Origin: a virus
Virus record (IMG/VR): IMGVR_UViG_3300046787_000968
Location: 1-44,661 of that record
Reading direction: 5' to 3' (one strand)
Length of the DNA: 44,661 nt
Below the pieces are notes generated by a model. That model saw nothing but the letters and a program-made list of their open reading frames with translations, was not told the DNA's origin and searched no databases. The position numbers were made by a program, and so were the translations under genes. Shown in pieces: positions 31,056-44,661 of this stretch; position 1 is the stretch's first letter; every line of letters starts with the position of its first letter.

Positions 31056-34000
31056 ATGAATCTGATGCCGGCTTCAAAACCTTTGATCATCGGCGCAGGC
31101 GGTGGCGGCAAGTCCGGTGGCGGTAGCGCCCGTGTGGCCCAAGAAGCTGCCGACAGCTTGCGCTCCAAAGCCTACGCCCGTGTGGTCGATTTGGTGTGCG
31201 AAGGAGAAATCGAAGGCCTGGTGCAGGGCCTGCAGTCGGTCTTTCTGGACGACACGCCGATTCAGAATGCCGATGGCAGCTACAACTTTTCTGGGGTGAC
31301 GCTTGAAAGCCGCCCCGGCACCCAGCAGCAGGGCTACATCCCGGGCTTTGCCTCGGTAGAAAACGAGGTCTCGGTCGGCGTGGAATGCAAGTTTGCCAAG
31401 CCGGTCGTGCGCGCCATCACCGACCCCGACGTGGACGCTGTGCGCCTCAAAGTGAGCATGCCCGCGCTCACCTTGCAGGACACGACCAACGGCGACTTGA
31501 ACGGCACATCGGTCAGCTATGCGATCGACTTGCAGTCAGCAGGCGCTGGTTTTGTTCAGGCGCTCACCGACACGGTTTCTGGCAAGACCACCTCGCGCTA
31601 CCAACGCAGTTACTACGTGCCGCTGTCCGGCACAGGTCCTTGGGATGTCCGCCTTCGCAGGCTGACCGAAGACGCGACCCAAAGCAGCCTGCAAAACAAG
31701 ACCTTCCTAGACTCGTACACCGAGGTCATCGAGAGCAAGCTGCGCTACCCCAACAGCGCCTTGATGGCCCTGCGGGTGGACGCCTCGCAGTTCAACGCCA
31801 TCCCCCGGCGCAGCTATGAGCTCAAACTCCTGCGTGTGCGGGTGCCGTCCAACTACGACCCGGAGTCTCGCGCATACGCGGGTGTCTGGGACGGCACCTT
31901 CAAGGTGGCCTGGACGGACAACCCGGCTTGGTGTTTTTACGATCTGGTCACCAACACCCGTTATGGCTTGGGGCATTTCATCCCAGAGTCTCAGGTTGAC
32001 AAGTGGGCGCTGTACCGGGTGGCCCGTTACTGTGATGAACTGGTGCCCGATGGCCTGGGTGGGCACGAGCCCCGCTTCACCTGCAACCTCTACCTGCAAA
32101 CCCGCGAGCAGGCCTACAAAGTGGTGCAGGACATGGCTTCGGTCTTTCGGGGCATGGCCTATTGGTCGGGTGGTGCCATCACCGTCACGCAAGATGCGCC
32201 CCAAGACCCGGTCTATCAGTTCACTGCTGCCAACGTCATCGATGGCGAGTTCGCCTTACAGGGCTCGTCCGCCAAGGCTCGGCACACCGTGGCCCTGGTC
32301 AGCTGGGTCGATCCGGAGGATTTTTACAGACAGAAGGTGGAATACGTTGAGGACGTCGCGGGCATCGCGCGCTACGGCGTGGTGCAAGCCGATGTGGTGG
32401 CCATGGGCTGCACCTCGCGCGGGCAGGCCAACCGGGTGGGCAAGTGGCTGCTGTATTCAGAGCAGTCCGAATCAGAAATCATCACTTTCCGCACAGGCTT
32501 GGAGGGTGCGGTGGTGCGCCCGGGCGATGTCATCCAGATGGCCGATCCGAGTCGGGGCGGCATGCGCCTTGGGGGGCGCGTCGCAGCAGCTACCACCACC
32601 AGCGTTACCCTGGACCAGGATTTGCCAGCCGATTTACCCTGGCGGCTTTCGGTGATCTTGCCGAGCGGAGCCGTGGAAGAGCGCTTGGTGGGGGCCACTT
32701 TCGCATCGGCCAGCGGTGATGCACACGCTCGGCGAACCCTCACGGTCACCATCCCCTTCAGCATGGCACCGCAAACCGATGCCATCTGGGTACTGGCTTC
32801 TTCCATCATCGAGCCGCAACTGTTTCGGGTGGTGTCAGTGGCCGAGCGCGAGCCCGGTGTGCATGAAGTCACGGCTCTGGCCCACAACCCGGGCAAGTAC
32901 GCGGCCATTGAAGAGGGCCTGGCGCTGCAGCCGCGCGCCATCACGGTGCTGTCGGACATGCCTGCCGCCCCCACAGCCCTCAGCATGCAAGAGAGCCTGT
33001 ACCGGGTCAAAGACCGGGCGCAGGTGCTTGTCCAACTGTCCTGGGCTGAAGTGCCCGCGGCCATTGCTTACCGGCTTTCCTACCGGGTGGGCGGAGGCAA
33101 CTTCGTGAGCTTGCCGCTGGTGAGCGCCAATTACGCAGAAATCCGCGATGCCCAGGAGGGTGAGTACGAGTTCAGCTTAAGGGCCATTGGCATCACCCGC
33201 AAGGAGAGCGCGCCCGCCACACTCAGCGCCACGGTGCTGGGCAAGACACTGCCCCCATCGGATGTGACCGGCTTTACCGTGCAGCGGCGCATGTCCGATC
33301 TGCTGCTGAGCTGGGACGAACTGCCCGATGCTGATCTGGCGGGCTACGAGGTGCGGGTTGGGCCTGGCTGGGACGACGCCCAACTGGTTGCCAAGACCTT
33401 AGGCACCCAGATGGTTCACGACCAGGACGCAGCAGGGCAGTACCCGTACCACATCCGCGCTTACGACACTTCGGGCCAATACAGCGCGCATGTCACCACC
33501 TTTGTGTTGACCTTGCCGGCCCCGGCCACGGTGCGCCAGTTCGATGTGGTGCAGTCGGCCAACCGGCTGGAGTTTCGCTGGCAACCCAACCCTGAGCCCG
33601 AGGTGGTGGGCTACGAGCTGCGAGAAGGTGCGGCATGGGACGCCTCGCTCTTTGTGGCCGAGGTCAAGTCCACCAGCTACACGCTGCCCTCAGGCTTTGA
33701 TGGCGAGCGCAAATTCTGGATCAAGGCGATCGCCTCGCCCGGCATCTACAGCGACACGCCCACTTTCGTCTCGACTGTGGTGGCCCAGCCGCAAAACGCC
33801 AATCTGATCCTCGAGCGTGACGAGCAAGCAGGGGGCTTTGCTGGCACCATGCATTTCGCCTCGGTGGTCACGGTCAATGGCAAAAACGTGCTGCGCATGA
33901 ACACCGGCGCGCAAGTGGCCGAATACCTTTTCGAGCTGGATCTGGTCTCGCCCATCCGGGCACAGAACACCTTGCTCAGCAGCCTGGGCGCTTCGGTCGA

Positions 34001-34601
34001 TGACCGCACCACCTGGCAGGAAGCCAACTTTGTCTGGAGCGGTGATGCCGCTCGAAGGCAGTGGACCTACGACGGCGCCATCGCCAACGTGGACGCGCGG
34101 TTTCAGATGGCGCGAGAGGATGTGCTGCACCCGGGCGAGCTCTGCGGCTGGCGGCTCAGCGGATCTGTGATGGGCATTGGCAATGCAGTAACGAGCCAGT
34201 CGGCGGGCGTGAGTTACGGCGATGGCCGCTACGGCATGGGGCTCATGGTCAAAGACACCACTCAGGTGGCCTGGACTGTGAACATGCCGCAGGTGTTTCA
34301 CACCTCGTTCTGGTTCATCCCCCAAGAGGTCACGACCTGCGTGATCTGGAAAGCAACAGGGCCAGTCGGCGCTTTGCTGCTGGGCTATGACGCCCAAACG
34401 CAAGACTTCTTCTTGGAAGACCATTTGTCCAGGCGCGTCACGCTCGCATTTGGGCTGGAATCATCCGATCGGGTCTGTCTGGGGTTATGCCAGACCAGCA
34501 CAGAACGCCGCCTCTTTGCCGCCAGGATGGGCGGCGGTGTCCAGTCGGCCCGCGCACGGCTTGAGCCCGTGGGTGCGTTCAGCAGTTTGCGGCTGTATTG
34601 A
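31056..34601 (+). CDS. J: Central tail fibre / host-specificity protein J homologue
   Basis: 1181 residues, near lambda J in length. It begins with the Gly-rich segment GAGGGGKSGGGSARVA and the conserved LRSKAYARVVDLVCEGEIEG. The N-terminal 600 residues form the conserved tail-hub region (YLQTREQAYKVVQDMASVF, AWCFYDLVTNTRYGLG). Fibronectin type III-like repeats follow (about 640-920), then a divergent C-terminal receptor-binding part. It determines adsorption, probably with the fibre proteins downstream. Confidence 0.94.
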   Translation: MNLMPASKPLIIGAGGGGKSGGGSARVAQEAADSLRSKAYARVVDLVCEGEIEGLVQGLQSVFLDDTPIQNADGSYNFSGVTLESRPGTQQQGYIPGFASVENEVSVGVECKFAKPVVRAITDPDVDAVRLKVSMPALTLQDTTNGDLNGTSVSYAIDLQSAGAGFVQALTDTVSGKTTSRYQRSYYVPLSGTGPWDVRLRRLTEDATQSSLQNKTFLDSYTEVIESKLRYPNSALMALRVDASQFNAIPRRSYELKLLRVRVPSNYDPESRAYAGVWDGTFKVAWTDNPAWCFYDLVTNTRYGLGHFIPESQVDKWALYRVARYCDELVPDGLGGHEPRFTCNLYLQTREQAYKVVQDMASVFRGMAYWSGGAITVTQDAPQDPVYQFTAANVIDGEFALQGSSAKARHTVALVSWVDPEDFYRQKVEYVEDVAGIARYGVVQADVVAMGCTSRGQANRVGKWLLYSEQSESEIITFRTGLEGAVVRPGDVIQMADPSRGGMRLGGRVAAATTTSVTLDQDLPADLPWRLSVILPSGAVEERLVGATFASASGDAHARRTLTVTIPFSMAPQTDAIWVLASSIIEPQLFRVVSVAEREPGVHEVTALAHNPGKYAAIEEGLALQPRAITVLSDMPAAPTALSMQESLYRVKDRAQVLVQLSWAEVPAAIAYRLSYRVGGGNFVSLPLVSANYAEIRDAQEGEYEFSLRAIGITRKESAPATLSATVLGKTLPPSDVTGFTVQRRMSDLLLSWDELPDADLAGYEVRVGPGWDDAQLVAKTLGTQMVHDQDAAGQYPYHIRAYDTSGQYSAHVTTFVLTLPAPATVRQFDVVQSANRLEFRWQPNPEPEVVGYELREGAAWDASLFVAEVKSTSYTLPSGFDGERKFWIKAIASPGIYSDTPTFVSTVVAQPQNANLILERDEQAGGFAGTMHFASVVTVNGKNVLRMNTGAQVAEYLFELDLVSPIRAQNTLLSSLGASVDDRTTWQEANFVWSGDAARRQWTYDGAIANVDARFQMAREDVLHPGELCGWRLSGSVMGIGNAVTSQSAGVSYGDGRYGMGLMVKDTTQVAWTVNMPQVFHTSFWFIPQEVTTCVIWKATGPVGALLLGYDAQTQDFFLEDHLSRRVTLAFGLESSDRVCLGLCQTSTERRLFAARMGGGVQSARARLEPVGAFSSLRLY

Positions 34602-35095: not shown

Positions 35096-36448
35096 ATGGC
35101 CGAGACGGTCACTGTAGGCGAGTCCCAAGGCCCGCGCTACACCTGGGCCAATGCCAGTTTCACTTGGCAGAGCGCCAGTGCGGGCAAATCCTGGCTCACG
35201 GCTTACCCCGCTGTATATGTGGTCGCAGTGGCTGCCACGCTGGCTTGGACGCAGGCGTCAGGTCGTCAGCATGGCAAGCGTCTTGGCGAAAATCTGTCCC
35301 TTGCAGAAACCCGGCGTCATCAGGCCGCGCTGCAAAGGACAGAGTCAATCGGGTTTGCCGACACCTACTACGACTTGATCGCCTATGTCCTGCGCTGGGT
35401 TGAGTCGCTGGGGGTGACTGAGGGCGTTGCCAAATCGAGCCGCAAGTCCGTTCAAGAAAACCTTCAAAGTCTGGACGGCTTGGCCCGCTCCATAGCCAAA
35501 GCCTTGCAAGAAGGCTTGCCTGTAACCGAGGTCTTGTCTCGGCAGATGCGCCAAAAGCATGCTGAGAGCCTGCCAGTGGCATCGGTATCCGCGCGGGTCG
35601 CCACCAAAACAGTCGCTGAAAGAGTGGCTTTGACCGATGACCTGGATCAACGCTTCAGCAAACGGGTCAGCGAAGGGCTGAACTTTGCCGAAACTTATTA
35701 CGACCTGATCGCCTTCATCCTGCGCATTGGCGAAGGTTTGGCTGTAAGCGATCAGGCCTCCAGGCGGCTTCAAAAGCCAGTCGCTGAGGCTCTCAGCACA
35801 AAGGATCAGCTTACCCGCAGATCCGTCAAACAGGTGGCCGAGGCACTGGCGTTTGCCGAAACTTTGGGCCGCACAGTGGCCTACAGGCGGTTCTTGCAAG
35901 AAGGTCTGGGTGTCTCGGAAGCCTTGCGCCGGGCGATGCGCCTCAGGGCCCATGAAGCCTTGGCGCTCGCTGAGCAGTATCGCCGCCACGCCAACGGCGT
36001 GATCAGCGACATGATCGTGGCCAGCACCGAGATCACCGAAGCCGATTTTGCAAGCATCGTCGAAGCGGGTCATCCCCCGGGCTACACGGATTTCCGGGAC
36101 TTCATTCAGGGCGACTACACCTACCAGCGCGCCTTGTTCCGTGCCATCCTGAAGTCCAGAAACTCCGACCGGGGTTTTATTGACGCGCTACGCGTGACGG
36201 TAGACGTGCCCGATGTCTTTGACCGGGGCACTGTGCAGATCACCGATGCGCAGGCAGGTGCCGTGATTGGCTTTGCCCGAATTTTTAGGGTGCCGCCCGA
36301 GGTGACCATGACCCACAAGGGCGGCACGGTGGTCGCCATCCCGCGCCTGTCCAGTGCGGTCACCCGAACAGGGTTCACTGCCATCTTAGAAAACACCGCT
36401 GGCACCCGCGTGACCGGCACCTTCACCTGGATCGCTCAGGGGTACTGA
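35096..36448 (+). CDS. Tail protein with thirteen 18-residue repeats
   Basis: 450 residues. Residues about 63-300 consist of 13 tandem units with consensus xExLxxxE/D (GENLSLAE at 64, TESIGFAD at 82, VESLGVTE at 102, on to HEALALAE at 286). The period is exactly 18 residues, or 20 in units containing a two-residue insertion such as YYDLIAYVLR. The C-terminal 150 residues are beta-rich (FDRGTVQITDAQAGAVIGFA) and look like a virion domain. It is probably a rod- or fibre-like structural protein; the family is not recognised. Confidence 0.82.
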   Translation: MAETVTVGESQGPRYTWANASFTWQSASAGKSWLTAYPAVYVVAVAATLAWTQASGRQHGKRLGENLSLAETRRHQAALQRTESIGFADTYYDLIAYVLRWVESLGVTEGVAKSSRKSVQENLQSLDGLARSIAKALQEGLPVTEVLSRQMRQKHAESLPVASVSARVATKTVAERVALTDDLDQRFSKRVSEGLNFAETYYDLIAFILRIGEGLAVSDQASRRLQKPVAEALSTKDQLTRRSVKQVAEALAFAETLGRTVAYRRFLQEGLGVSEALRRAMRLRAHEALALAEQYRRHANGVISDMIVASTEITEADFASIVEAGHPPGYTDFRDFIQGDYTYQRALFRAILKSRNSDRGFIDALRVTVDVPDVFDRGTVQITDAQAGAVIGFARIFRVPPEVTMTHKGGTVVAIPRLSSAVTRTGFTAILENTAGTRVTGTFTWIAQGY

Positions 36449-36488: not shown

Positions 36489-37424
36489 ATGCAAAACTTC
36501 ACCGACATCCCGTCCTCGCGCACGCTGTCTGACTCACTCATCGAGATCCTGAACAACGACAAGACGGCGATCTCCTGCAACAGCGGCACCACATTTCCGA
36601 CGACCAACCAGCAAGTGGGCATGCTGTGCTACCGCACGGACCAGCTCAAGCTCTATCAGCTGATCGGCACCAACCCGGACAACTGGCGCTTCATCATGGA
36701 CCTGGCCAGTGGCATCGACGCCCAGTTCGCGGCCAAACTCAATGCCGCCGCCTACACAGCAGCGGACGTGCTGGCCAAGCTGCTCACGGTGGATGGCCCG
36801 AGCTCCGGGCTGGATGCCGACTTGCTGGACGGCCAGCACGCCAGCGCTTTTGCACCAGCTTCGCACAATCACAACTCGGCCTATCTGGGCATCAGCGCCA
36901 AGGCGACGGACGCAGACCGCCTGGACGGCTACGACGCCTCGGCCTTTGTCCGCTCGGTCAACGGTAGTGGTCCTGACGCGAACGGCAACGCCACAGTCAA
37001 CATCGATTTGTCGGGGCGGGTAGCGCGCAGCGGCGACAGCATGAGTGGGCGCCTCACGCTGCCCAGCCAGACCGTACAGAGCACCTCGCCCACGATCGAC
37101 TTTTACGACACAGACCAGGGCAGCACCCGTTATCTGCATGTCAACAGCAACCTGATGGGGTTTTTGAAGACCGACGGTAACTGGGACATGTACATGAACA
37201 ACGGCGGCTCCATGTGGACCGCCAACTATGGCTGGCTGCACGACTACTTTTTCAAGCAAGTGGCCAATTGCGGTGGTACTGGTTACGCCATCAATTGCTA
37301 TGGCAGCGGCAACATCACCAGTCGGCATGACTACGAGTTGATTGATGAAGGTGGACAGGTGAGGTTGCGCACGGTGAACGTGCTGACCAATTGCAACTGC
37401 AATTGCAACTGCTGTGGCTGCTGA
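36489..37424 (+). CDS. Tail fibre protein with Asn-Cys C-terminal tail
   Basis: 311 residues. The N terminus (FTDIPSSRTLSDSLIEILNN, MLCYRTDQLKLYQLIG) and repeats LLDGQHASAFAPASHNH and RLDGYDASAFV are typical of phage tail fibres. The C-terminal domain has DTDQGSTRYLHVNSNLMGFL. The last 11 residues are NCNCNCNCCGC, six Cys immediately before the stop, with no such clustering elsewhere in the protein. They could form thioethers, disulphides or a metal site. The following genes encode oxygenases and a radical SAM enzyme, so this tail is the best modification-substrate candidate. Confidence 0.88.
   Translation: MQNFTDIPSSRTLSDSLIEILNNDKTAISCNSGTTFPTTNQQVGMLCYRTDQLKLYQLIGTNPDNWRFIMDLASGIDAQFAAKLNAAAYTAADVLAKLLTVDGPSSGLDADLLDGQHASAFAPASHNHNSAYLGISAKATDADRLDGYDASAFVRSVNGSGPDANGNATVNIDLSGRVARSGDSMSGRLTLPSQTVQSTSPTIDFYDTDQGSTRYLHVNSNLMGFLKTDGNWDMYMNNGGSMWTANYGWLHDYFFKQVANCGGTGYAINCYGSGNITSRHDYELIDEGGQVRLRTVNVLTNCNCNCNCCGC
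37389..37412 (+). repeat. 12-bp tandem repeat encoding NCNC units
   Basis: AATTGCAACTGC occurs twice head-to-tail (37389-37400, 37401-37412) in frame, each encoding Asn-Cys-Asn-Cys, followed by TGT GGC TGC TGA. The repeat could expand or contract by slippage and so change the number of cysteines. Confidence 0.85.
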
Positions 37425-37438
37425 AAGGGGATCTGCTC

Positions 37439-38233
37439 ATGAAAACCATCCGCATGTCTTATCCGCTGCAAAGCCCTGCGAGCACAACAAACGCGCACCG
37501 AAACAACCTCATTCGCATTCAGAGGGTGGAGGGCGATTTCTTGATCGAACACCTTACGCCTGCATTTGAGCAAGCCTTGGATGAAAGTGGCCGGGTCATT
37601 GATGAATCGTCTGCGCCCATGTTGGTCGGCCATCAAAGCGCATTTGTCCACGCTGTCACAGTAAGTGACCTGCAAAACCTCGCGCAAGATCCCGGCAATG
37701 CCTACACCGTCTGGCTCTTTGCACTGCGTCAAGGGGAGAATGAGCCGGTGTGGATCAACAAGTTCGCGCAGACTGCCTTGTCTAAAGAAGGGTTTCGGCA
37801 GTACTGGAACCAGCAGCCCATGCTGGTCTTGGCCCAGCTTTGGATCCCACCGCTAGGTCTTGAGCCCTCACTGGTGCTCATGTGCTCGCCACAAGCGGGT
37901 CAGACCGAGGTGACCGGTTTTGAGTTTGATCACGAGTGGGAAAGCAATTCGGTTGCCATGGCTCTGGCGTTTCCCTCGTTTCGCTTGGTCGATGAGGGGG
38001 GTGATCCCCGGCGCATCCGTATCTCGGCGGTCAATGACCAGGGGATGGTGCTCCCGGCGTCTGGGCAGGTGCTACTGAGCACCACGGCCGGTGCTTTGAG
38101 CAACAGCCGCCCAAACCTGGATCAAGGGCAAGCCCTTGTCACGCTCTTTGGCGCAGACCCCGGGGCCCTGGCCAAGATCAAGCTGGGATTCAAGTGGTTC
38201 AGCGGTGTCGAAGAGCTGGAGGTGCGGGTGTGA
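37439..38233 (+). CDS. Cassette protein 1, unknown with possible Ig-like C terminus
   Basis: 264 residues from ATG 37439, after AAGGGG. The N-terminal part (MKTIRMSYPLQSPASTTNAH) has no recognised domain. The C terminus (RIRISAVNDQGMVLPASGQV, LLSTTAGALS, KIKLGFKWFSG) resembles a bacterial Ig-like (Big/invasin-type) sandwich. No signal peptide. The next gene begins in its stop codon (GTGA). It may be a structural partner, chaperone or additional substrate of the modification enzymes. Confidence 0.75.
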   Translation: MKTIRMSYPLQSPASTTNAHRNNLIRIQRVEGDFLIEHLTPAFEQALDESGRVIDESSAPMLVGHQSAFVHAVTVSDLQNLAQDPGNAYTVWLFALRQGENEPVWINKFAQTALSKEGFRQYWNQQPMLVLAQLWIPPLGLEPSLVLMCSPQAGQTEVTGFEFDHEWESNSVAMALAFPSFRLVDEGGDPRRIRISAVNDQGMVLPASGQVLLSTTAGALSNSRPNLDQGQALVTLFGADPGALAKIKLGFKWFSGVEELEVRV

Positions 38234-39219
38234 GCGGTGCTGAAAAAGTCCGTGCGCGCTTCGTGCAGCGGGTCGATGAGTTCACACAACCGCTGGCCGT
38301 GGAGGTTCTGGCTGAGGCGGATCGCTTGACCTGGCGGCTGTTGGAGCCATTGGAGATGCTTAGGCAAGATTACCCTGTCGGTAAGGTGACCCAAAAGCAG
38401 TATCGGGTCCATCCTTTGGGCGCTTCGGTCTCAAAATCGCATTCATTGCCCAGACGCGGCCAGCCCAGTCCCTACATCTTGCCAGTCAGAGTGGACATGC
38501 CATCTGGCCACACCGAGACCATTGATGGCGTGCCGTGGGGCCTGGTTGATGAAATCGCCCTGGATCCACAAGCCATGCACGCCAAGCCCCACATGTATGG
38601 CGAGCACCTGAGTGATTGGGCTGCCTGGATGTTTGTGCTGTGCACAGATACCTGGCGTTTCATGACACCCTTCAACCGCCATGTGCTCACCCACAGCAGC
38701 CGGGTAGACAGCGAAGGCTTTACCGCCTTGTCTTTACCGCTCACCAAGGCGCGCCAGACGCATTTGGTTGCCGGGTCATGCCTGGTGCCATGGCATGAAT
38801 CGCCGCTCAGCGCTCAGATGGTGCTGCGCATCAACGCCCACCCAGGCGGACAACTTTGGACCAACCTTCAAGTGGATGAGCACGTGACTTATGCCAAGCC
38901 AAGTGAGGCTCTGGCCGGGCATGCCCACACCATTACCCGGCTGCACGAACACATGCCCAAGCTCACTGTGCAAGCCCCACCAGTGGTGACAGCAGATCAG
39001 TGGGTGGAGCTGGAAATACGGTCCTCAGAGCCCGCCGATGCCTGTCTGCATGTGCACGCCGTCTCGGGCTATGTCCCACACCAACGCGTCCGCATGGTTG
39101 CAGGAAGGGCCCAAATTCGGGCCCTGGCCTTGGGGCTGCGTGCCGGAGAAAACCTGCATCTTCAATTTGGATTAGGGGCCGTCACCGCACTGGCCCAAGG
39201 AGTAATTCATGTCATTTGA
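38230..39219 (+). CDS. Cassette protein 2, unknown
   Basis: 329 residues from the GTG at 38230 that overlaps the previous stop. The middle is aromatic and His-rich (KPHMYGEHLSDWAAWMFVLC, WRFMTPFNRHVLTH); the C-terminal 90 residues (TADQWVELEIRSSEPADACL, RMVAGRAQIRALALGLRAGE) look like a beta-sandwich similar to cassette protein 1. No known enzyme motif. It shares the coupled operon with the oxygenases and radical SAM gene, implying joint function. Confidence 0.75.
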   Translation: MSGAEKVRARFVQRVDEFTQPLAVEVLAEADRLTWRLLEPLEMLRQDYPVGKVTQKQYRVHPLGASVSKSHSLPRRGQPSPYILPVRVDMPSGHTETIDGVPWGLVDEIALDPQAMHAKPHMYGEHLSDWAAWMFVLCTDTWRFMTPFNRHVLTHSSRVDSEGFTALSLPLTKARQTHLVAGSCLVPWHESPLSAQMVLRINAHPGGQLWTNLQVDEHVTYAKPSEALAGHAHTITRLHEHMPKLTVQAPPVVTADQWVELEIRSSEPADACLHVHAVSGYVPHQRVRMVAGRAQIRALALGLRAGENLHLQFGLGAVTALAQGVIHVI

Positions 39220-39928
39220 CGCATCAGCGCACGCCCCGCCACCCATCATGGCGGTGGCCACACAAGCCAGTCCGCATCCGTTCGCATCAACCGATGCTTC
39301 AGAGAACCACCCAACGTCATCCCAGAGTTGGGTTTTTTCTTTGTGGCCCAGCATTGTGCATGTCCATCCATCAGGCATACAGCTCGAACTGCTTGAACGA
39401 CTGGCGACGGCCGTCCTGCGGGAAGACGCCGAGCACCGCTGGGGGCCCGAAGCCTGGCAGTGCCGCAGCCACGACTTGCTGCAGGGGGGCGTATCCCCGG
39501 CGGATGGTCTGCATGACATGTTGTCGGTGGTCCGTGAGCACCTGCAATCCATCTGGGGCACATACCGATACCGCCTCAGCGCCCACATCATGCGCTGCCA
39601 GCCGGGATTTCATGTGGCTGAGCACATCGCCAGTTCGCGTGCTGGGCTAAATACGGTGCTGTTTTTGCAAGCCGACTACCCAACGACTGACAGTCCCAAT
39701 GTGCGAACGCCGGGTTGTATGGTCATTGGCAATCCGGCCAAACGCGTCAATGAAACCGTGCTGCCTTGGGAAACGCCGGTGCATTTTCCGATTACGCCCC
39801 AGCCGGGCCTGCTTGTAACCATGCCCCTGTGCACGCCACATGGCTACTTTCCTCTGCGCACCCAGACACGCGACACCCTGGCCATCGAGTTTCACTCGGT
39901 GGCAGAACCGGAGGCAGAACATGCTTGA
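39209..39928 (+). CDS. Possible double-stranded beta-helix (2OG/Fe-type) protein
   Basis: 239 residues after AAGGAG. The first about 45 residues are low-complexity. The rest resembles a jelly-roll oxygenase: RYRLSAHIMRCQPGFHVAEH with His135 and Glu138/His139 as possible metal ligands, LNTVLFLQADY, and a distal PHGYFPL (His211) with Arg221 in RDTLAIEFH. This matches the HxD/E...H...R spacing of Fe(II)/2-oxoglutarate enzymes only loosely. It could also be a cupin-like binding protein. It overlaps the next gene by 8 bp. Confidence 0.6.
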   Translation: MSFDASAHAPPPIMAVATQASPHPFASTDASENHPTSSQSWVFSLWPSIVHVHPSGIQLELLERLATAVLREDAEHRWGPEAWQCRSHDLLQGGVSPADGLHDMLSVVREHLQSIWGTYRYRLSAHIMRCQPGFHVAEHIASSRAGLNTVLFLQADYPTTDSPNVRTPGCMVIGNPAKRVNETVLPWETPVHFPITPQPGLLVTMPLCTPHGYFPLRTQTRDTLAIEFHSVAEPEAEHA

Positions 39929-40529
39929 TGTACGAAGTCCCGTTTCATTTTTCGATGGCGTTCTGGATCCGGGCGTAACGCAGGAGCTCGTCGATTGGCT
40001 ACAGCACCTGCAATACCGCTATTACCGCATCACCAACAAAAACGAGCCGGAGCCGTTTCCGATCTGGCACCGCGAATTGTTGGGTCGGGACTGGCCCATC
40101 AACCAAGCTTCGGACTACAGCTGCACGCCGCAATTCCTGCAGGATCAAACCAGCGTGCTCTCTGATGTTTGGCGGTCATGCATGCGGGCGCTGCAACTGC
40201 CTGACATGACCCAGTGCCATGGCGTCTACGCCAATGCCAACACCCATGGTAACGAAGGCAATGTCCACATCGACAGCCAGCACCCGCTGGACAGAACCCT
40301 GTTGATTTATGGCGTGCGGCAGTGGCAAGCAGGGTGGGGCGGAGAAACAGTGTTCTACGACCAGGAGGGTCGCCTGCTGGGATCGGTCATGCCCGCGCCC
40401 GCTCGGGTGGTGTTCTTTGCTGGGCACATCCGCCATGGCGTCAACCCCATCTCCCGTGCCTGCCGTGATCTGCGTCCTGTCTTGGTGTTTAAAACGCGGC
40501 TGCAGGAGCCGCAAAAGGCCCTCTCATGA
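39921..40529 (+). CDS. 2-oxoglutarate/Fe(II)-dependent oxygenase
   Basis: 202 residues from ATG 39921 after GGAGG. A clear double-stranded beta-helix signature: HID (His116, Asp118) as metal ligands, WGGETVFYDQEGRLLGSVMP, and FFAGHIRHGVNP with distal His172, followed by Arg182 for 2-oxoglutarate. This is the prolyl-hydroxylase-like superfamily that hydroxylates protein side chains. The start overlaps the previous gene by 8 bp and the stop overlaps the radical SAM start by 4 bp. Substrate is unknown; Asn or Pro of virion proteins is the natural guess. Confidence 0.87.
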   Translation: MLDVRSPVSFFDGVLDPGVTQELVDWLQHLQYRYYRITNKNEPEPFPIWHRELLGRDWPINQASDYSCTPQFLQDQTSVLSDVWRSCMRALQLPDMTQCHGVYANANTHGNEGNVHIDSQHPLDRTLLIYGVRQWQAGWGGETVFYDQEGRLLGSVMPAPARVVFFAGHIRHGVNPISRACRDLRPVLVFKTRLQEPQKALS

Positions 40530-41884
40530 AGTTTCAAATTCACGCCTTGCGCCAAGACGGCCAGAAAGTCTTGCTGCACTACGACAACCAGCTGTCCACG
40601 CTGACCTGGCAGGACGGCACACCCGTGGTGCTGGTTCAGCCTGGCAGTTTCCGGGATGCCACGGCGGTGTCGTTCAGCCAACCCGGCCGCAAGGGTCAGG
40701 TGCGCATCCTCAAGATCAGTCTGGGGCTGTCTTGCAACTACGAATGCAGCTACTGCAACCAGCGCTTTGTGTCGCATGCGGTCGCGAGCAATCCGGATGA
40801 CATCGAGCCGTTCATCAGTCAATTGACCGATGCGCTACTTGAACCACCCGAGCGCATCGAGTTCTGGGGTGGAGAGCCCCTGGTGTACTGGAAGACGCTC
40901 AAACCGTTGGCCGAACGTTTGCGTGGCTTGTATCCGGAAGCTCAGTTCAGTGTCATCACCAATGGCAGCTTGCTCGACGCGGATAAGAACGAGTGGTTCG
41001 ACCGCATGGGGTTTTCTGTGGGCTTGTCGCATGACGGTCCAGGCCAGTCCACCCGCGGCCCCGATCCGCTGAGTGACCCCGAAAAACACGCCGCCATCAT
41101 GGACCTTTATGCCCGCTTGCATCCTCAGGGCCGTATCAGCATCAACGCCATGGTTCATGCTGGCAACCAAAGTCGGGCGCAGATTCAGGCTTGGCTGCAG
41201 CAGCGCTTTGGCCAGGATGTGAACATCGGGGAGGGCGCTTTCATTGATCCCTACGATGAAGGCGGCTTGGCAGCAACCCTGCAAACCCAGCAGGACCATG
41301 TGCGTTTCAGGGCCTTGGCCTACAAAGAAATGCGCCAGGGCCTGGCTTCGCGCATGTCGGTGGCGCAGCAGCGCATCATGGACTTTGTGCAGTCCATCCG
41401 TACCGCACGCCCTGCATCCTCGCTGGGCCAAAAGTGCGGCATGGACAAACCGGACAACCTGGCGGTGGACCTGCACGGCAAGGTGCTCACCTGCCAGAAC
41501 GTGAGCGCAGTTGCCACTGCGCCCAATGGGCAGCCCCACCAGATTGGCCATTTGTCTAATTTGCAGGCAGTCAAGATGCGCAGCGCCACGCACTGGAGCC
41601 ACCGATCAGACTGCCCCAGCTGCCCGGTTCTGCAATTGTGCAAAGGCTCATGCATGTTTTTGCAAGGACGGCTCTGGGATGCGGGTTGCGATGCAGCCTA
41701 TTCGGATAACCTGCCGTTTCTGGCTGCGGCCATCGAGTACCTCACGGGTTGCATTCCGTACTACATCGACGGCGACTTTCGTGAAGACCGCAAAGACATC
41801 TTTGGGCAGGTCCACGGAGTCCCCGAACAAAGCACCAAGCGCGTGATTCCAATCCTGGCCTACGACCGAACTGTCGCAGCCTGA
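40526..41884 (+). CDS. Radical SAM/SPASM peptide-modifying enzyme
   Basis: 452 residues. The SAM-binding [4Fe-4S] motif is CNYECSYC (Cys70, Cys74, Cys77), followed by GGEP (115-118). The C-terminal SPASM domain is complete: Cys304-x13-Gly318-x4-Cys323, gap, Cys363-x2-Cys366-x5-Cys372-x3-Cys376, gap, Cys388, the seven-Cys pattern for two auxiliary clusters. Such enzymes form thioether or carbon-carbon links in ribosomal peptides or mature enzymes. There is no small precursor gene nearby. It ends the coupled cassette, after two oxygenase-type genes and a Cys-tailed fibre. An N-terminal 60-residue domain may bind the substrate. Confidence 0.93.
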   Translation: MKFQIHALRQDGQKVLLHYDNQLSTLTWQDGTPVVLVQPGSFRDATAVSFSQPGRKGQVRILKISLGLSCNYECSYCNQRFVSHAVASNPDDIEPFISQLTDALLEPPERIEFWGGEPLVYWKTLKPLAERLRGLYPEAQFSVITNGSLLDADKNEWFDRMGFSVGLSHDGPGQSTRGPDPLSDPEKHAAIMDLYARLHPQGRISINAMVHAGNQSRAQIQAWLQQRFGQDVNIGEGAFIDPYDEGGLAATLQTQQDHVRFRALAYKEMRQGLASRMSVAQQRIMDFVQSIRTARPASSLGQKCGMDKPDNLAVDLHGKVLTCQNVSAVATAPNGQPHQIGHLSNLQAVKMRSATHWSHRSDCPSCPVLQLCKGSCMFLQGRLWDAGCDAAYSDNLPFLAAAIEYLTGCIPYYIDGDFREDRKDIFGQVHGVPEQSTKRVIPILAYDRTVAA

Positions 41885-43725: not shown

Positions 43726-44661
43726 ATGATTGATTCGATCCTTGGAAAAAAGCCTCAGTTCTCGGGTCATGAGACCTTTCCGCTGCGGCAGTTGTGGCTA
43801 AAGAAGGCCTTTGATTCTGTACAAAACCGCCCTTATTTCGGCGAGGCACCTAAGCACATATTTGCTGATGAGGAAGCGATTGTTGACTTCGGCGTCGGAA
43901 AAAACATGGTCAGCTCTATTCGTTTTTGGGCCGTTGCCTGCAACGTTCTCGAAGAGAGCAGTGACTCATACAAGGTGACATCTGTAGCGGATGCGCTGTT
44001 CAACGAATTTCAAGGCCTCGACCCCTACTGCGAAAACATCTCAACTGTTTGGTTGATGCATTGGTTTCTCGCAAGCACTCCTGATCGGACGACTACTTGG
44101 TACTACCTGTTCAATCACGTGGTGCAACAGGTTTTCGACAGAGACTTCATCGGCAAGGCACTTGCAGGCGAACTGGAGAGCATTAAGGCAAAAATTTCGC
44201 AGGCAACATTGAAGCGAGATGTGGAGTGCTGCATTCGAAGTTATGTTCCGCGAGCTAACAGCGATTCCCCTGAAGATTTGAGTGAGCCTTTGCTGGGTGA
44301 GTTGGGACTGATTGTTCACAACTCAAAAGATTCGTTTGAGTTCCGCAGAGGGGCTAAGCGCTCGCTGCATGATGGAATTTTCGGGTATGCGTTGCTCGAC
44401 TATTGGGAGCGTCTAGAGGCTTCTGGGTCTGTCATGGCGTTTGATCGTGTGGCGCATGACTATGGGTCTCCTGGGCGCGTATTCAAGATTGATGAGAACG
44501 GTATTGCTGAGCGGCTAATTTCGTTGGAACAAATCACGAACGGACAGATTCAATGGACTGAGCAAGCTGGGCTACGACAAGTGACGTTAAAAAATAATTC
44601 CGAAAAGGGCGTCAAGGCACTGAAGGAAAAGCTGCTCAAAATTGCCTACAGCAAAGACTAA
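43726..44661 (+). CDS. DUF4007 family protein
   Basis: 311 residues beginning PQFSGHETFPLRQLWLKKAF, with VDFGVGKNMVSSIRFWAVAC and WLMHWFLASTPDRTTTWYYL, the DUF4007 signature as I know it. These genes tend to lie near PAPS-reductase-like and other genes in putative defence loci. Codon use is more AT-rich than the phage genes. It follows the AT-rich junction and is probably not a virion gene. It could be the first gene of a defence operon continuing beyond the window, or a cargo gene at the prophage edge. The stop is the last codon of the window. Confidence 0.82.
   Translation: MIDSILGKKPQFSGHETFPLRQLWLKKAFDSVQNRPYFGEAPKHIFADEEAIVDFGVGKNMVSSIRFWAVACNVLEESSDSYKVTSVADALFNEFQGLDPYCENISTVWLMHWFLASTPDRTTTWYYLFNHVVQQVFDRDFIGKALAGELESIKAKISQATLKRDVECCIRSYVPRANSDSPEDLSEPLLGELGLIVHNSKDSFEFRRGAKRSLHDGIFGYALLDYWERLEASGSVMAFDRVAHDYGSPGRVFKIDENGIAERLISLEQITNGQIQWTEQAGLRQVTLKNNSEKGVKALKEKLLKIAYSKD

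Follow-up and report, generated by a model that had tools for sequence, protein, structure and literature searches.

Why should a phage fibre end in a run of alternating asparagine and cysteine residues? The question is raised by an IMG/VR virus record of 44.7 kb (hereafter the window, meaning the whole 44,661-nucleotide stretch that was analyzed), which contains a lambda-like tail module (J at 31056-34601) and whose nearest relatives are found in Limnohabitans, Rhodoferax, Polaromonas and other Burkholderiaceae genomes. An initial annotation of this DNA described the repeat as a possible means of tuning crosslinks or metal binding. It did not connect the tail to a downstream gene for a radical-SAM/SPASM enzyme, though that gene accompanies the tail in nearly every locus.

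A fibre tail composed of Asn-Cys units

The assignment of the gene product as a phage fibre is supported (Table 1), and its structure is predicted poorly (pLDDT 52). The open reading frame (ORF) has the C-terminus ...TNCNCNCNCCGC*, with the stop codon following directly. Its last 36 bases are two exact, in-frame copies of AATTGCAACTGC (37389-37400 and 37401-37412) and then the codons TGT, GGC, TGC and TGA (TGTGGCTGCTGA, 37413-37424), in frame to the end of the ORF. The encoded tail is NCNCNCNC-CGC, with six Cys among the last 11 residues, so that re-reading the sequence confirmed the tandem 12-bp copies and the cysteine content noted initially. In the alignment of the window's fibre family, N301, C302, C304 and C308 are invariant, as are N269 and C270 of the upstream pairs, whereas N260 and C261 are at least 90% conserved.

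Table 1. Locations of the features discussed; coordinates refer to the window unless another locus is named
Feature	Coordinates	Strand	Remarks
Tail fibre gene	36489..37424	+	311 aa; C-terminal module closes with (Asn-Cys)4-CGC tail; PHROG tail-fibre matches; homologues in alignment
Conserved C-terminal fibre module (GFLKTDGNWDMYMNN...NYGWLHDYFF)	37071..37262	+	Tail-free; core of independent query
Two upstream Asn-Cys pairs, N260-C261 and N269-C270	37266..37298	+	Fibre-family alignment
(Asn-Cys)4-Cys-Gly-Cys tail	37389..37421	+	Proposed radical-SAM substrate; sequence and locus surveys
First follower	37439..38233	+	Probable second copy of follower family; alignable, only ~14% identical
Follower protein	38230..39219	+	Confident Ig-like C-terminal domain (model); GTGA overlap with preceding gene
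2OG-Fe(II)-oxygenase-like protein	39209..39928	+	Aligns with PF13759-type oxygenases of sister loci; HxA (HIA/HVA) for HxD
2OG-Fe(II) oxygenase (PF13640)	39921..40529	+	HxD...H; likely start 39921, longest ORF opens at 39840
Radical-SAM/SPASM enzyme	40526..41884	+	452 aa; CX3CX2C and seven SPASM Cys; phrog_1802; ATGA overlap with oxygenase gene
Hint-fused tailed proteins	L197 (Achromobacter phage JWF) 6667-8118; L325 (phage 2-1) 2296-3738		

Among 15 relatives (the window included), four N/D-C units and the CGC end are kept while synonymous codons are exchanged (AAT/AAC, TGC/TGT). Because the codons vary synonymously and the protein is constant, selection acts on the protein. The 12-bp DNA unit had been regarded as the working element, but these codon swaps mark the exact 12-bp repeat as incidental; at the protein level the unit is the Asn-Cys pair, encoded by 6 bp. 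The suggestion that copy number varies proved correct except for the size of the step: unit number varies in 6-bp, not 12-bp, steps. For example, L228 has five Asn/Asp-Cys units versus four in close relatives, and the tail of Achromobacter phage 2-1 is one unit shorter than that of JWF. Nor is the tail unique to this genome, since it is real and common to homologous fibres that share the same downstream genes.

Such tails occur in ~100 non-redundant phage proteins, and the tail is far beyond chance expectation. We analyzed 98 non-redundant tails, selected with a pattern that favours Asn, Ala and Asp before Cys; under this preference, the residue preceding each tail Cys is Asn in 357, Ala in 67 and Asp in 36 of 486 instances (73%, 14% and 7%). 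Tails are three to nine units long, and 43 of the 98 stop exactly at the stop codon. Because the search pattern favoured these residues within tails, isolated Cys residues elsewhere in the tailed proteins, which were not selected by the pattern, constitute an independent test of the Asn-Cys code. Asn precedes 69% of them directly, versus an Asn background of 9%, whereas at position -3 of isolated Cys in tailed proteins no enrichment of Asn was observed. Asn-x-x-Cys bridges as a general rule are therefore unsupported at isolated Cys. An extreme case is the protein encoded at 210-1286 of locus L183, in which many irregularly spaced Asn-Cys pairs are distributed across the first half, before a Hint domain.

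The motif is rare in whole bacterial genomes, with matches in four of 398 proteobacterial genomes. One corresponds to an already known Limnohabitans prophage; in the remaining three the match is internal or due to simple sequence, and no such radical-SAM gene was found nearby.

Two other features of the window were observed. A 450-aa protein encoded just 5' of the fibre gene (35096-36448) contains several imperfect repeats (e.g., 35354-35395 and 35684-35725). At the right edge (43726-44661) lies a gene for a DUF4007/SspB-like protein (PADLOC SspB, 3.5e-111) of the phosphorothioation-type defence; the remaining genes of any SspB-type system would fall beyond the window's edge.

Association of the tail with a radical-SAM gene

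We surveyed IMG/VR from three starting points: the enzyme, the tail DNA and the tail-less fibre domain. The enzyme query yielded 77 IMG/VR loci, to which loci from cultured phages and bacterial genomes were added, and 91 loci had a strong profile hit. With a minimum of three alternating X-Cys units in an ORF taken as the definition of a tail, 83 of the 91 loci have an alternating tail, (Asn/Ala/Asp-Cys)n, on the enzyme's strand, and one of the 91 has a tail on the opposite strand. Among the eight enzyme loci that lack a tail, three (L010, L018 and L060) have little upstream DNA, in L072 a Hint domain follows a Cys-rich stretch, and in L022 and L210 the enzyme is present and no tail was seen. 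In the last two, L076 and L212 (Polynucleobacter necessarius PPGSP2 prophage), the radical-SAM frame is interrupted and a tail Cys is changed to Arg (NCNCDRNCGC). Though a single case, this coincidence has the appearance expected if a shared function had been lost.

The tail-DNA query was blind to the enzyme, and a locus was scored if the pattern occurred at the C-terminus of an ORF of at least 80 aa. The enzyme was present in all 24 such loci with at least 2.5 kb of downstream sequence; another 11 tailed loci with less than 2.5 kb downstream were left out as unscorable. If shorter loci that show the enzyme are added, the count becomes 32/32, compared with 3/26 where the pattern was matched but not at a C-terminus of this kind (Fisher P 3e-13, which is indicative only because the loci share ancestry). 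One of these three carries a tail followed by a Hint domain. A small number of the enzymes counted in the tail-DNA set resemble the window's enzyme only weakly (L092 and L099). Asn-Cys tails beside radical-SAM genes weakly similar to the window's were seen in L092, L099 (which has four such genes) and L106, hinting at more than one enzyme subfamily among the tail-linked genes.

With the tail-less fibre domain as query, a tail was found at all 78 complete C-termini and the enzyme downstream in 71 of the 78 loci, the remaining seven having less than 4.5 kb of downstream sequence. The Pseudomonas phages Dolphis and Itty13 contain the fibre domain with a chaperone-type domain at its end and no tail, and no Pseudomonas phage appeared among protein-search matches to the enzyme. 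We also sampled 401 genomes of the Limnohabitans family. Apart from the one already known, five gave matches, together containing an interrupted copy of the enzyme gene and five intact loci. A tail is present in four of the five intact loci, in one case followed by a Hint domain, and absent from the interrupted copy; G326, one of the four tailed loci, probably duplicates the L206 contig and so is not independent.

These counts are of loci, which are related, and not of independent origins; an impression of breadth is given by the diversity of the enzymes, which number 86 at 90% identity and form 16 groups at 50%. The well over one hundred phage and prophage loci range from 40-kb prophages to contigs of ~170 kb, and the tail is carried by different fibre backbones and by stand-alone genes of 95-130 aa. 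Three consecutive small genes (~95-120 aa), each with its own Asn-Cys tail, occur in L037 (6014-7096) and in L040/L042 (5609-6549); in L037 each of them is a shaftless copy of the fibre C-terminal domain. Radical-SAM genes of Campylobacter CP220 and Thermus Cumys were set aside as distant, and no alternating tail of at least three units was found on the fetched strand. Overall, the genetic link between tail and enzyme is strong.

In several loci (JWF, 2-1, L107, L173, L183, L213 and L231), the final tail Cys marks the start of a self-processing domain of the Hom_end_hint type (Hint), and Halomonas is also among the loci with a Hint domain fused directly after the tail. As judged from these sequences, the domain would make the end of the tail a cleavage junction and free its C-terminus, which suggests that a free tail end matters.

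The enzyme and the genes between

Between the fibre gene and the radical-SAM/SPASM gene lie, in order, two followers, a 2OG-like gene and a 2OG-Fe(II) oxygenase gene. The run is tightly packed: 14 bp separate the fibre gene from the first follower, and each of the next four junctions is an overlap, GTGA at 38230 and ATGA at 40526 among them.

In the enzyme, the CX3CX2C motif is present, and its cysteines (C70, C74 and C77) are invariant in 29 diverse family members, as are the SPASM cysteines C304, C323, C363, C366, C372, C376 and C388. The protein exceeds the cut-off of the SPASM model TIGR04085 (32.5 versus 27 bits) and matches many RiPP maturase models in NCBIfam, in every named case far short of the curated threshold; its best NCBIfam match, the PapB thioether maturase family NF047865, scores 55.2 bits against a cut-off of 340. 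The model for anaerobic sulfatase-maturating enzymes (anSME), TIGR03942, likewise scores below its threshold (45 versus 349 bits), although the profile aligns with anSME structures (4K36-4K39) from the radical-SAM core through the SPASM region. In anSME, an Asp that follows a SPASM Cys has a catalytic role; at this position all 29 members have an invariant Gln instead (C323-Q324). The enzyme is not a prokaryotic viperin (pVip) by NF038283 (53 versus 180 bits) and, unlike pVip, has a SPASM domain; a PADLOC pVip hit (1.7e-14) covers the core domain only. A Pfam search found no PqqD/RRE (RiPP recognition element) in the enzyme. As in RiPP systems, a putative modifying enzyme is encoded beside a putative precursor with a conserved Cys-rich core.

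Of 86 non-redundant loci, 54 encode a member of the follower family, whose gene generally begins no more than ~15 bp from the stop codon of the tailed fibre. The follower's model gave no convincing PDB match, and its relatives are unnamed phage proteins only. We infer that it is a fibre-associated structural or assembly protein.

The product of 39209-39928 has no Pfam match and is homologous to PF13759 members; its HxA is conserved in the eight aligned near relatives. In known halogenases, an HxA-type site binds halide. The site could possibly be either an inactive iron site, in a partner of the next oxygenase, or a halogenase-like halide-binding site. The protein encoded at 39921-40529 belongs to the 2OG-Fe(II) oxygenase superfamily, with a PF13640 score of 30.7 bits (gathering score 27) and HID...H in its translation. 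Its PHROG match, phrog_274, is named "DNA endonuclease V" in disagreement with the Pfam assignment, and the PHROG name looks wrong. Genes for 2OG-Fe(II) oxygenases were found in 41 of the 69 loci with at least 4 kb of upstream sequence, and an obligatory role was rejected on this count. Because an entire clade on larger contigs (L061-L070 and L077) is without them, the oxygenases are optional.

Proposed chemistry and relation to known systems

Gene linkage, a conserved Asn-Cys code, intact cluster-binding residues and close packing of the genes are all seen directly, and linkage alone does not prove a substrate. The reading that we favour, with a probability of roughly 0.7, is that the tail is a substrate of the radical-SAM enzyme, which most likely introduces crosslinks derived from Cys (thioethers) at the tip of the fibre. 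The (Asn-Cys)n tail would then be a built-in C-terminal substrate of a dedicated enzyme from the same gene run. After translation of the fibre, the enzyme would generate a 5'-deoxyadenosyl radical at its CX3CX2C cluster and oxidize tail residues at the Asn-Cys units, while the SPASM auxiliary iron-sulfur clusters would help to position the Cys thiolates. The likeliest products would be bridges from Cys sulfur to carbon, which might convert a flexible tail into a crosslinked knob, rigid and redox-stable, and perhaps tie together the chains of a fibre trimer, and the oxygenases encoded between would act as optional tailoring enzymes. The identity of the substrate, the bond type and a role in tip stability and/or receptor binding are inferred from genomic data.

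The enzyme could instead modify the tail without crosslinking it, by producing formylglycine or a dehydro residue from Cys, by epimerization or by forming an Asn-Cys heterocycle, with a reactive or metal-binding tip as the result. This alternative draws on the matches to sulfatase-maturase structures, on the annotation of the JWF gene as such an enzyme and on the adjacent Asn-Cys unit, which differs from the spacing of known thioether substrates. We nevertheless consider it unlikely, given the Gln in 29/29 members at the position of the anSME Asp and a tail without a sulfatase-like CxPxR motif; formylglycine formation by an anSME-type enzyme in particular is disfavoured by the Gln. CxC runs in general bind soft metals, and this property, together with the variation in unit number between relatives, would fit an unmodified tail that forms disulfides or holds metal, is tuned by repeat number and is accompanied by a radical-SAM gene with some other job. 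Such a tail leaves unexplained why nearly all enzymes come with a tail, why no tails were found outside the enzyme context and why Asn so strictly precedes isolated Cys, and we regard it as quite improbable. Of the roles initially suggested for the tail, crosslinking is still favoured, whereas an account limited to free thiols or metal binding is unsupported.

Many of the loci are related betaproteobacterial prophages, as would be expected if tail and enzyme merely hitch-hiked in one inherited tail module with no functional link. The association nevertheless holds although the enzymes fall into 16 groups at 50% identity, fibre backbones and intervening genes differ and some tails are encoded by stand-alone genes, and Dolphis and Itty13, which share the fibre domain, lack the tail, with no Pseudomonas phage in the enzyme protein search; hitch-hiking thus seems very improbable. 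A slippage artefact, that is, simple-sequence expansion, has in its favour the exact 12-bp tandem copy and the similar letters that simple repeats give in bacterial genomes; it is negligible in our estimation, being ruled out by synonymous codon variation around a constant protein among relatives.

Crosslinking by the radical-SAM enzyme, which we continue to prefer, need not involve a known bond. Asn is found at -1 of isolated Cys and not in the Asn-x-x-Cys spacing, and Ala and Asp also occupy the Asn position. Because the adjacent Asn-Cys unit is unlike the cited substrate spacings, the bond itself may be new. A more far-reaching version, held tentatively and at somewhat less than even odds, is that an (Asn-Cys)n polymer on fibres and small fibre-like proteins is converted by a phage-borne radical-SAM enzyme into a tip that is crosslinked or heterocyclic. 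On this view, the virion would carry a receptor-contact element remodelled covalently by previously unseen Asn-Cys chemistry, its end freed by Hint domains in some phages.

These data suggest that a large, unstudied group of phages chemically remodels the tip of its host-contact fibre. If so, radical chemistry helps to build the virion structure with which phages contact the host, the recurrent and unexplained phage family phrog_1802 would have an explanation, and enzymology would gain a tailed substrate. Such tips could also be recognized in metagenomes by a simple rule, a C-terminal alternating Asn-Cys run with a downstream radical-SAM gene. Mass spectrometry of the cultured phages JWF and 2-1 would put the proposal to a direct test.

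The established products of radical-SAM/SPASM enzymes are peptide natural products and a small number of enzyme cofactors. Open-licence papers yielded no description of a tail-enzyme link or of a fibre-modifying radical-SAM enzyme, which is not proof of novelty; radical-SAM genes in phages are mentioned without a link to a tail (PMC2853527, PMC7029224). The phage family phrog_1802 ("radical SAM domain-containing protein") is the same family (E 1e-60) and includes Achromobacter phage JWF, and its entry gives no substrate and no link to an (Asn-Cys)n tail. Known radical-SAM thioethers join Cys to alpha, beta or gamma carbons, and NxxcA has a Cys-Asn beta-thioether with Asn-x-x-Cys spacing (PMC8326336). 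The ranthipeptide maturases (PapB, CteB/SCIFF and NxxcA) resemble our enzyme as radical-SAM/SPASM proteins acting on Cys-containing substrates, PapB being its best NCBIfam match. Our enzyme scores only 55 against the PapB cut-off of 340; the maturases also differ in acting on a small leader-core peptide rather than a virion-fibre C-terminus, and in substrate spacing (Asn-x-x-Cys or Cys-x3-Asp versus Asn directly before Cys), and no RRE was found here by Pfam. QhpD, the quinohemoprotein amine dehydrogenase maturase, is a radical-SAM enzyme outside the RiPP systems and joins Cys with other side chains inside a protein (PMC8326336). Our enzyme matches its quino_hemo_SAM model and would likewise act on a protein, but scores 34.7 bits against a cut-off of 453 and differs in substrate and context. 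The anSME proteins (4K36-4K39) are relatives of solved structure from the radical-SAM core through SPASM; their Asp is Gln here, no sulfatase is present and the substrate motif is different. Hint domains associated with Hom_end (PF05203) follow the tail directly as fusions in JWF, 2-1, Halomonas and others, and are absent from the window's fibre, where the tail is already C-terminal. RiPP systems release a small peptide, whereas the substrate here would be an entire fibre, the tail end of which could be freed by Hint domains in some phages.
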